Part shown: piece by piece, positions 18,473 through 31,279 of the stretch | Layout: each line of letters begins with the position of its first letter | Position numbering within the stretch: position 1 is the first letter of the stretch | NCBI GenBank assembly: GCA_903826575.1 | Contig: CAIKEU010000013.1 | Span: 62,001 to 126,000, forward strand | Length of the DNA: 64,000 nucleotides | Source: an uncultured bacterium | Lineage (GTDB): Bacteria; Actinomycetota; Actinomycetes; S36-B12; CAIYMF01 | Direction of reading: 5' to 3' | Translations under genes and position numbers: made by a program | Notes under the pieces: model-generated | Database searches by the model: none | Seen by the model: only the letters and a program-made list of their open reading frames with translations | Told to the model about the DNA's origin: nothing

Positions 18473-18481
18473 TGTGGATAA
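18473..18481 (-). promoter_or_regulatory. Isolated consensus DnaA box
   Basis: TTATCCACA is present exactly on the minus strand in the crgA-rhomboid spacer. A partial copy (TTATCCAA on the minus strand) lies near 18499-18506. They are about 11 kb from the main origin cluster. Both could be chance, but the spacing is close and the first match is perfect. Confidence 0.5.
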
Positions 18482-18570
18482 ACATGTGGACATCTAGTTG
18501 GATAACAACCGTCCACGCTCAGAACGGCATACACAAGCCTGTGGGTAGTCACAACCAAAATGTCAAGGGC

Positions 18571-26484: not shown

Positions 26485-27006
26485 TCACCCATAGGTATCG
26501 CGTGGGCCCCTGCCCTGCACTGTGAACTTCCCGTGCCGCCATGATGGAGCCGCCGGTCCCAGGATGCTAATGTCCCGAACGGTTCCGACACCCACCTCCG
26601 CGTCAATTCGCGAGCGCACCGCCGGGAGTAAGAGCCGAAGCGAGGTGGCCCAAGCGGTGGAGTCGGCCCGAAGGACGAGCACCATGCCGATACCGTCCGG
26701 GGCAAGCTGGAAGCTTTCTGGAACGACATGTTCGGCAATATCCGCGCCAACGATTTCGTGCCAACGCCCAATCAGCCCACCAACCGCCGTCTGTCGTTCC
26801 CAACCGCGATCACGCAAAAGGTGGGCAATAGCCGAACTCACCAGCGTTGGGTCTCGCAGGTCAGGACCTGCAGCTGTTGGTGCCGAAGACCGCGAATGGC
26901 GGCTTTGTTGGGAGGGCTGACTTCGGCTGTGATTACGCGCCCGCGCGATCGCTTCTGCCGCAGCGTCCACCCTGTCTGCCGGCTCGGTTGTTTCGTCAGG
27001 ATTCAT
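26485..27006 (-). CDS. DUF721 protein, DciA-like helicase-loading factor
   Basis: This is a 173-residue protein. The first 55 residues are disordered and rich in Ser, Gln and Arg. The rest is the DUF721 domain ([54 protein letters not shown]). DUF721 is the core of DciA, which loads or activates the replicative helicase DnaB in bacteria without DnaC. The start overlaps the end of recF by 11 bases, so it is in the dnaN-recF-dciA unit next to the origin. Assignment to DciA rests on the domain and the context. Confidence 0.9.
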
Positions 27007-28161: not shown

Positions 28162-29283
28162 TTATGAAGATAGTCGAACTGGCATGAGCAAATAACGGTA
28201 GGAAGGGGAAGACGCTTGTGACCCACCCGTCAGGACCGCAGGTCGCGTCGCAGTTGTGAATGAAAGATGGGTCGTTGCGTCATCCAACGCGCTCAGTCCG
28301 TCCTGAAGGTACTGCGGGTTGAAAGCGATCTCGATTGCTGCTCCATCGACAGAGCATTCGAGAGACTCATTAGCTTGCGCTTCATCACCCGTACCAGCGC
28401 GCAGCTCAACTTCACCATCGGCGAACATGAGGCGCACTGGTGTATTACGTTCTGCCACAAGGGATACACGCTTTACTGCCTCAACAAGTGCTGCAGTATC
28501 TACCGTGGCGGTCGTTGCGGATTCAGAAGGCAGGAGCGCACGATACTTCGGGAACTCACCATCGAGTAGTCGGGTGGTGGTTCGTCGACCATCACCCTCG
28601 AATCCCATCAATCCATCGCTGGCACCTGACGCGGCGAGGGCAAGGTGGACCTCATCACAGCCGGCAAGAGACTTTGCTGTGTCGGCCAAGGTGCGTGCCG
28701 GGACAAGTGCTTGGACGTCGAGCGATGTGTTTGCGGGTGTCCACGGGAATTCGCGTACGGCCAGACGATAGCGATCCGTCGCTGCAAGCGTGATCGTGTT
28801 GTCGAGGATTTCAACCCGGACCCCGGTGAGGGTAGGCAACGTATCGTCGCGGCCCGCAGCTATAGCTACCTGAGCAACCGCGTGTGCAAACACTGAGCCT
28901 GGAACCGTGCCGGAACTACCTGGCATATCGGGAAGGCTTGGATAGTCATCAACGGGGAGTGTTGGCAGCGTGAATGACGATCGTCCGCAGGTGACCTCAA
29001 CTCGACTACCTTCAACGGAAATCGTGACCGGCGCCGCAGGTAACAAGCGAGAGATATCCGCAAGGAGTCGACCAGAAACCAGAACCCGGCCTGGCTCCAT
29101 GACATCCGCGTTTACCAACACACGGCCTGAAACTTCGAAGTCGAAACTCGACAGCATGAGTTGCTGGTCAGTGGCCTCAATGAGCAGACCAGCGAGCATC
29201 GGCATTGACGGGCGGGTCGGCAATGTGCGAGCCGTCCAGGCAACTGCGTCGGCGATGACATCTCGCTCTAGCCGGAATTTCAC
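28162..29283 (-). CDS. dnaN: DNA polymerase III sliding clamp (beta subunit)
   Basis: This 373-residue clamp encircles DNA and holds the polymerase. Three similar folds cover about 1-120, 128-245 and 250-373. Typical segments are [37 protein letters not shown] and the end [22 protein letters not shown], which includes the hydrophobic partner-binding pocket. The gene starts at ATG 29281-29283 at the edge of oriC and heads the dnaN-recF-dciA run. It is full length with no irregularities. Confidence 0.98.
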
Positions 29284-29824
29284 TGTGCGCTCCTGTCAGA
29301 CCACGTCTGATCGTTCGTGACAAATGATGATGGTTCAGTGCAGTCATGGTTCCACGAACTACTGACCCGTGTGAACTAGACCCACATGATTGTCTAAAAC
29401 TCTGACGATCACGATGATGTCTGATCCAGCGCCCCACGGCTACTGAGAAGTGATCCCCAGATAAGTTGTTGTTAAGGCTCTTTCAAAAATTCTTAGTATC
29501 TAGGTGTAGTAGTAGTAATAGGGGCTGTGGAAACTGTGGATAAGTACTAACACCGCAGGTAGATCGCGATTCTTGACTCATGTGGGGCTGTGGATAAAGC
29601 TCGGTTGACTCATCGATTCGGTGGAAAAGTCTGTGATTCACGCTGATGTCATCGACTTATCCCCACCGCGACCGCCGTTTGACCCGAAGTGTCCACAGGT
29701 GATCCACCACGTGTAAGCCCGTTTGTCACCGCACGTTAGTGAGGGATATCCACAGACTATCCCCAACCTGTGAACACAGATTGTGACGGGAGGTGATAAA
29801 TTATTACCCTGTGTTACTTTTCAC
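29284..29824. other. Chromosomal replication origin (oriC), dnaA-dnaN spacer
   Basis: This 541-base spacer between dnaA and dnaN holds no gene and is the expected actinobacterial origin. It contains an AT-rich part (about 29461-29520) and several DnaA boxes. Two are exact (TGTGGATAA, i.e. TTATCCACA on the other strand) at 29535-29543 and 29589-29597. Near matches are TGTGGAAAC at 29526-29534, TTATCCCCA at 29657-29665, GTGTCCACA at 29689-29697, ATATCCACA at 29746-29754 and CTATCCCCA at 29757-29765. The boxes right of about 29650 point opposite to those on the left. Confidence 0.93.
29507..29543 (+). promoter_or_regulatory. Origin-unwinding module: DnaA-trios plus two abutting DnaA boxes
   Basis: Read left to right there are five trinucleotides TAG TAG TAG TAA TAG (29507-29521) and a short GC block (GGGC). 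Two DnaA boxes follow with no gap, TGTGGAAAC then TGTGGATAA. The AT-rich candidate unwinding element lies just left of the trios. This is the order of the basal unwinding system described in Bacillus subtilis, where DnaA spreads from the boxes onto the trios of one strand. Confidence 0.75.
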
Positions 29825-31279
29825 TCATTTGGCGGATTGGCGCGCTGTGCTCTTGATACGCGCAGTGAGATCAGTGACCTGATTGTAGAGACTCCGACGT
29901 TCAGCCATGAGCTGGCGGATCTTGCGGTCGGCATGCATAACAGTGGTGTGATCGCGGCCGCCGAAAGCTTGGCCAATCTTGGGTAGTGAAAGATCGGTGA
30001 GTTCGCGGCACAGGTACATAGCGATCTGGCGTGCAGTAACAAGGACCCGGGAGCGGCTTGAGCCGCAGAGATCGTCAACGGTCACGCCGAAGTAGACAGC
30101 AGTTTGCACCATGATGATAGACGATGTGATTTCAGGTCCGGCTTGATCGGTGATCAGATCTTTGAGAACTACCTCGGCTAAGTCCAGGTCGACGGGTGAA
30201 CGATTCAAACTTGCAAACGCGGTAACGCGAATCAGCGCACCTTCAAGCTCGCGGATATTTGACGAGATCTTCGACGCGATGAACTCCAGCACCTCGGGTG
30301 GTGCGCTCAATCGTTCTTGGGCGGACTTTTTACGCAAGATAGCGATGCGCGTTTCAAGGTCGGGTGGCTGAACGTCGGTGATTAAGCCCCACTCGAAACG
30401 AGAGCGCATTCGATCTTCGAAGTCCTGCAATTGCTTGGGCGGCATATCACTCGTGACAACGATCTGCTTGTTTGCGTTATGAAGAGTGTTGAAGGTATGG
30501 AAAAACTCTTCTTGTGTCTGGACTTTCCCGCTCAGGAATTGAATGTCATCAACGAGTAGTACGTCGACGTCACGATAACGACGTTGAAAGGTTGCTGCCT
30601 TGTCATCACGAATGGAGTTGATGAACTCGTTGGTGAACTCTTCGGAGCTGACGTATCGAACTCGAGACCCGGCATAAAGGGTTCTGGTGTAGTGGCCAAT
30701 TGCGTGCAGAAGGTGGGTCTTGCCCAACCCTGATTCTCCGTAAACGAACAATGGGTTGTAGGCGCGTGCTGGCTGTTCGGCGACTGCGACGGCGGCCGCA
30801 TGTGCGAATCGGTTACTGGATCCAATAACGAAGGTGTCGAAGTTGTACTTGGGATTTAGGCGACTCGACTCTTCCCCTCTAGTGCCCGGTGAGCCGGTTC
30901 CGGGACGCGAGGACTCCTGGGTTGGGGTGGTCGGAGCGAATGACGGTTCGACGGTGACCGGATCGGCGTACGTGGAATCAGCAAGATCGTCAGTTGCATC
31001 TTCATCGAGAGTTGGGGCAATTGCGGGATCGACCGTAACGGCAATGCGAACCTCGCGGCCCAGGGTTCGAGTCAACGCATCGACCACCAGTGGGCGGAGT
31101 TTGGACTCAAGGACATCCTTGGTGAATTCATTGGGCGCGGCGACAAGAGCGGTGTCTTCAACCAGTGCGAGTGGTCGGGTCAGTGACACGAATGCGCGCT
31201 GTTGAGGGGTCATGCCCTCATCACCTAACGAGGCAAGTGCGCGTGCCCACACCTCTGTCAGGTCAAGTTCGTCTGCCAT
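29825..31279 (-). CDS. dnaA: Chromosomal replication initiator DnaA
   Basis: This is a 484-residue AAA+ protein. Domain I covers about 1-85, a linker rich in Pro, Thr and Ser about 90-145, and the AAA+ domain III about 150-365, with [19 protein letters not shown] (Walker A) and [10 protein letters not shown] (Walker B). DNA-binding domain IV ends with [19 protein letters not shown] 31277-31279 has AAGGGG in front. The frame is open back to 31411, but the extra residues do not match the family. Boxes for its own product lie on both sides of the gene, which suggests autoregulation. Confidence 0.98.

Follow-up and report, generated by a model that had tools for sequence, protein, structure and literature searches.

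Our analysis provides strong evidence that positions 29461-29543 of the window (the whole stretch of 64,000 nucleotides analyzed here) are the basal unwinding system (BUS) of the chromosome, with melting expected at 29461-29521, and that the DnaA pocket of this phylum accepts either A or C at the middle of a DnaA-trio, the trio being 5'-T-M-R-3' (M = A/C). We put the probability of this reading at about 85%. The module is very likely the spot where the chromosome opens for replication. In all features open to a sequence test, the copy in the window is an ordinary BUS member of the A form; the phylum-wide trio variant, which had previously only been suspected, is brought out by the comparison of origins rather than by this copy.

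The gene order around the module is gyrB, DciA, recF, dnaN, dnaA, then rnpA, yidC, jag, rsmG and parA (names from Pfam where tested, otherwise from sequence and gene order), and GC skew changes sign at the dnaA-dnaN spacer; neighborhood and skew change are those of a chromosome origin. Going from dnaA towards dnaN, the box cluster comes first in the spacer, then the two boxes with GGGC and the five trios behind them, and last the AT-rich flank (Table 1). An earlier note on this DNA had described five trios, a GC block and two gapless DnaA boxes in this order with an AT-rich stretch on the left, and the letters are exactly as claimed. The two boxes abut on the same strand and are co-oriented with the trios, from which they are separated by 4 bp (box 1) and 13 bp (box 2). 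The published BUS rules call for a better box with no more than two mismatches, and box 2 is perfect; they also call for at least three NAN trios at 16 bp or less from a DnaA box, and the window has five. The density of DnaA boxes in the window as a whole is not significant (22 matches at up to one mismatch vs 19.5 expected), and boxes were therefore used only to anchor the comparison and do not count as evidence for an origin. A pair of boxes 3 bp apart, TTATCCACA and ATGTCCACA (18473-18493, minus strand), lies 11 kb from the origin and may be a DnaA site outside oriC.

Table 1. Features of the predicted origin and of the neighboring replication genes, in window positions.
Feature	Position	Strand	Basis or remark
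DciA family protein (PF05258)	26485..27006	-	Pfam; between recF and gyrB
dnaN	28162..29283	-	ORF; Pfam
dnaA-dnaN intergenic spacer, predicted oriC, 541 bp	29284..29824	.	Flanking ORFs, GC-skew sign change, DnaA-box cluster
AT-rich flank, putative DNA unwinding element adjoining the trios	29461..29506	.	70% AT
Five DnaA-trios, 5'-TAG TAG TAG TAA TAG-3' (3'-GAT-5' away from the boxes)	29507..29521	+	Sequence
Single trios TAG, TAG, TAG, TAA, TAG	29507-09, 29510-12, 29513-15, 29516-18, 29519-21		
GC spacer GGGC, 4 bp long, separating trio 1 from box 1	29522..29525	+	Sequence
Trio-proximal DnaA box (box 1), forward letters TGTGGAAAC, box strand GTTTCCACA	29526..29534	-	2 mismatches to TTATCCACA
Second DnaA box (box 2), forward letters TGTGGATAA, box strand TTATCCACA	29535..29543	-	Perfect consensus
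Further perfect DnaA box TTATCCACA	29589..29597	-	Box scan
DnaA box TTATCCCCA	29657..29665	+	Box scan
DnaA box GTGTCCACA	29689..29697	+	Box scan
DnaA box ATATCCACA	29746..29754	+	Box scan
dnaA	29825..31276	-	ORF; Pfam; start at 31276 is our choice, the ORF itself extends to 31411

The arrangement is unique. The 34-nt module pattern, allowing up to three mismatches, has one match in the window and none in 100 dinucleotide-preserving shuffles, and TARx5 with up to one mismatch likewise matches once in the window and never in the shuffles. In the 3.01-Mb genome a scan with TMRx4-TAR-N4-TGTGG (up to one mismatch) returned a single match and no second trio array, while the reversed control returned none. 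According to a nearest-neighbor stability scan, no other 50-bp stretch in the 64 kb is as unstable as positions 29472-29521, which comprise AT-rich flank plus trios (-55.6 kcal/mol vs a window mean of -74.6, sd 3.9). The module could still be a BUS while the first opening in vivo takes place at another site, such as the region upstream of dnaA with its boxes TTGTCCACA (31468-76) and TCATCCACA (31323-31); some origins in other phyla are bipartite. With no second trio array in the genome and the least stable stretch of the window lying at the module, we regard such a displaced opening as highly improbable.

Order, orientation, trinucleotide register and spacing all agree with the B. subtilis type of BUS architecture, as the earlier note had proposed. 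Both systems (PMC6669920, PMC10721633) share the order of trios, GC block and two co-oriented boxes, the trio register, trios reading 3'-GAT-5' from the boxes, a better box distal to the trios, an AT-rich region beyond them, and Asn187, Ile190, Ile193 and Glu228 in DnaA. Box 29526-34 is the counterpart of B. subtilis box 7 and box 29535-43 that of box 6. B. subtilis differs in having six trios instead of five, and Arg202 and Asn196 in DnaA where the window has Gln and Asp; across the actinobacterial phylum, moreover, the middle base is A or C. It also differs in its helicase-loading proteins: DnaD/DnaB_2 (PF07261) was found in none of 21 genomes (that of the window and 20 relatives), the B. 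subtilis control being positive, and a DciA gene lies near the origin, whose product is probably the helicase-loading partner in place of DnaD/DnaB. In the BUS survey, a BUS is predicted in 1755 of 2070 species and 13 bp is the commonest box-to-trio length (PMC8287927). This survey and the trio annotation of Ori-Finder 2022 (PMC10225481) resemble our module in the 13-bp box-trio distance, the tandem boxes and the 3'-GAT-5' proximal trio.

The residues that read the trios are known from B. subtilis, where two bases per trio are captured between neighboring DnaA protomers and Asn187 reads the amino group of the middle base (PMC10721633), while Arg202 reads the trio guanine. C in place of A at the middle position works in vitro in this species, G and T do not, and in vivo a middle C supports better growth than G or T; the structural study proposed the amine as the feature that is read and considered wider sequences possible in other DnaA homologues (PMC10721633). 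Of the five residues of the trio-reading ssDNA pocket (B. subtilis numbering: Asn187, Ile190, Ile193, Arg202, Glu228), the window DnaA keeps all but Arg202, which is Gln; Asn196, which also contacts ssDNA, is Asp. None of the five is universal according to the source paper on the pocket. Conservation in the phylum is high, with Asn187 in 139/140 actinobacterial DnaAs, Ile190 in 139/141 and Glu228 in 174/174. Arg202 is replaced by Gln in 91/148, including that of the window, and guanine is nonetheless kept in the trios; guanine reading must thus differ in detail from B. subtilis. No clear covariation was seen between pocket residues 196/202 and trio letters, a third-position G being equally common with Gln202 and Arg202.

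For the phylum-wide comparison, 254 actinobacterial dnaA-dnaN spacers were used (same genus, family and order; same class; other classes of the phylum), including 80 loci from a DnaA search, many of them from named species. Module sites were located with a matrix that covers nothing but the two boxes (18 bp) and the 4-bp spacer, the trio letters being left out in order to avoid circularity. The search was confined to the dnaA-dnaN spacer after a site inside the dnaA coding sequence (GTTGTGCAGCGTGTTGAACGTGTGGAAGA) had acted as a decoy and misled the first position-weight scan. A site was found in 203/254 spacers (45/48 in the order, 75/84 in the class, 65/80 in the DnaA-search set and 18/42 in other classes), with trio register and orientation conserved. 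The 51 spacers without a site at threshold come chiefly from non-Actinomycetes classes (24/42) and from a group with a single box. Thinning at 72% identity left 151 sites; all 151 matched better on the expected strand, and the best matches on the opposite strand carried no trio pattern. The spacing in the boxes is fixed by the way the matrix was built, while that of the trios was found to be constant. In one same-genus genome with 9% contamination (L005) the spacer contains extra sequence, and 957 bp separate the module from dnaN. Three public MAG records, two under the title Bifidobacterium breve (L062, L066) and one under Acidobacteria bacterium (L061), have DnaA and origins resembling those of the window's order, and their names look wrong.

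These sites also bear on whether the module might be a regulatory element of dnaN or dnaA (a promoter or a DnaA autoregulation site) instead of an opening site, as its position upstream of dnaN and its DnaA boxes would allow. Depending on the origin, the module lies anywhere from 66 to 636 bp from the dnaN start, yet its internal spacing does not change by a single base, and the five-fold 3-bp period fits no promoter type known to us. A purely regulatory role therefore has hardly any chance of being correct.

Across the phylum the module has exactly five trios, together with the 4-bp GC spacer and the 9+9 box pair. The first base is T in 91, 86, 81, 74 and 59% of trios 1 to 5, the third base is a purine in 97, 85, 83, 83 and 89%, and A or C occupies the middle in 96, 93, 80, 77 and 77%, against a strand-specific background of 48%; a sixth trio gives no signal (A/C at 35% of middle bases). 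At all five middle positions C exceeds G (p 5e-5 to 4e-19) and A exceeds T (p 2e-5 to 2e-31). G or T occupies 20-23% of the middle bases in trios 3-5, so that the A/C rule is a strong preference there. Stricter thinning (to 111, 65 and 38 sites) leaves the preference in place, though it declines as weaker sites count for more. On a DnaA tree of 176 taxa, parsimony attributes 55% of 121 inferred middle-base changes to A<->C, spread over the five trios, compared to 13% in the 5' flank; third-base changes are mainly A<->G (51%), and C<->T is the commonest first-base change (38%). With rising GC content middle A falls (rho -0.38), C rises (rho +0.29) and G rises weakly (rho 0.16, p 0.05). Among the fetched origins, 15 are all-C in the middle of their five trios (those of Micromonospora, Cellulomonas sp. 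URHD0024 and Isoptericola sp. AK164 among them), and 14, including that of the window, are all-A. NAN holds throughout trios 1-3 in 34/151 modules and NMN in 115/151; conservation of a literal middle A among relatives thus fails, and it holds in the relaxed A/C form.

Could all this be a plain AT-rich unwinding element, opening through its instability, with the trio pattern playing no part? The flank is indeed AT-rich across the phylum (bins -50 to -21: 49-61% AT vs a background of about 36%), and in the window the least stable 50 bp are found here. The trio block itself, however, averages 53% AT, falls to 27% and in many cases places a C every three bases; G is less favored than C, though both stabilize the duplex equally; and T, M and R recur at an exact period of three over five units in a fixed register with the boxes. 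Instability as the whole explanation is very unlikely in the face of these data.

Conservation by itself cannot tell which strand is read, and the A/C constraint could in principle reflect the complementary strand (T/G, keto bases) being read by another protein, as by DnaD in B. subtilis. The DnaD element requires a T opposite the middle A, and C-form trios lose this T. The absence of DnaD/DnaB_2 from the 21 genomes mentioned above also argues against such a reader, and for the trio strand an amine mechanism has already been shown (PMC10721633). We consider reading of the complementary strand very unlikely.

Within the genus the strict TAG repeat is lost in 8/9 other members aligned, which read e.g. 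TTG TCG TCA TAG followed by GGGC; TAG/TAA trios persist throughout in just one of them, the nearest species (94% DnaN identity), which shares the all-A form with the window. The earlier note had named loss of the TAG periodicity or a shifted box spacing in close relatives as evidence against its reading. The periodicity is lost in the literal sense, whereas spacing, orientation and a period-3 T-M-R pattern are retained. A second layout was seen in L219, L221 and L222 and in the MAG loci L072, L075, L080, L082, L094 and L110, which have no proximal box: four trios (TAGTAGTAGTAA, TAGTCGTAGTAA or TATTCGTAGTAA) are followed by 14 nt, one base above the usual 13, and then by a lone box that is TGTGGATAA or closely similar to it.

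Under the BUS reading, DnaA-ATP would first bind the consensus box 29535-43 and then the adjoining weaker box, and would polymerize across the GC block onto the strand 5'-TAGTAGTAGTAATAG-3', which runs 3'->5' from the boxes outwards. Two bases of every trio would enter the pocket between neighboring DnaA protomers, the duplex would melt over trios and AT-rich flank, and the helicase would then be loaded at the melted region, presumably with DciA. The actinobacterial pocket would take A or C at the middle position, since these two bases offer Asn187 an exocyclic amine to read; the phylum-wide trio is therefore expected to be T-M-R. The simplest account would be that the capture mechanism is the same as in B. 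subtilis, that the amine and not adenine is conserved, and that drift has led to C where genomes are rich in GC.

Deviant trios without a middle adenine were suspected by the authors of the BUS survey (PMC8287927). Among the main texts covered by our search, we found no description of the A/C rule in natural origins. The rule of the survey and of the Ori-Finder 2022 program demands a middle A in at least three trios, and by our emulation 113/151 actinobacterial modules would fail it at this site, though a different position within the spacer may then be reported. The earlier note had called the opening site of actinobacterial origins often unclear. This is only partly right: the papers covered by our search include one earlier report of trios in an actinobacterial origin, that of Kocuria rhizophila (PMC12500396). 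Its oriC likewise lies in a dnaA-dnaN spacer with an unwinding element, DnaA-trios and two box arrays; it differs in that the available text gives the trios as annotation, without a statement on A/C variation.

Actinomycetota probably use a relaxed 5'-T-M-R-3' code in which selection keeps the middle amine; whole lineages (Micromonospora and others) would open their chromosomes without any NAN trio, and current origin-finding rules would miss or misplace the site in most of the phylum. A better search rule would be TMR instead of NAN, and a likely opening site can be named for a phylum whose origins often leave it ambiguous. Actinobacterial origins would provide an independent evolutionary test of the amine rule, with repeated A<->C transversions and avoidance of G and T, and the natural all-C origins, from soil bacteria that are not pathogenic, offer the material for a simple biochemical test.
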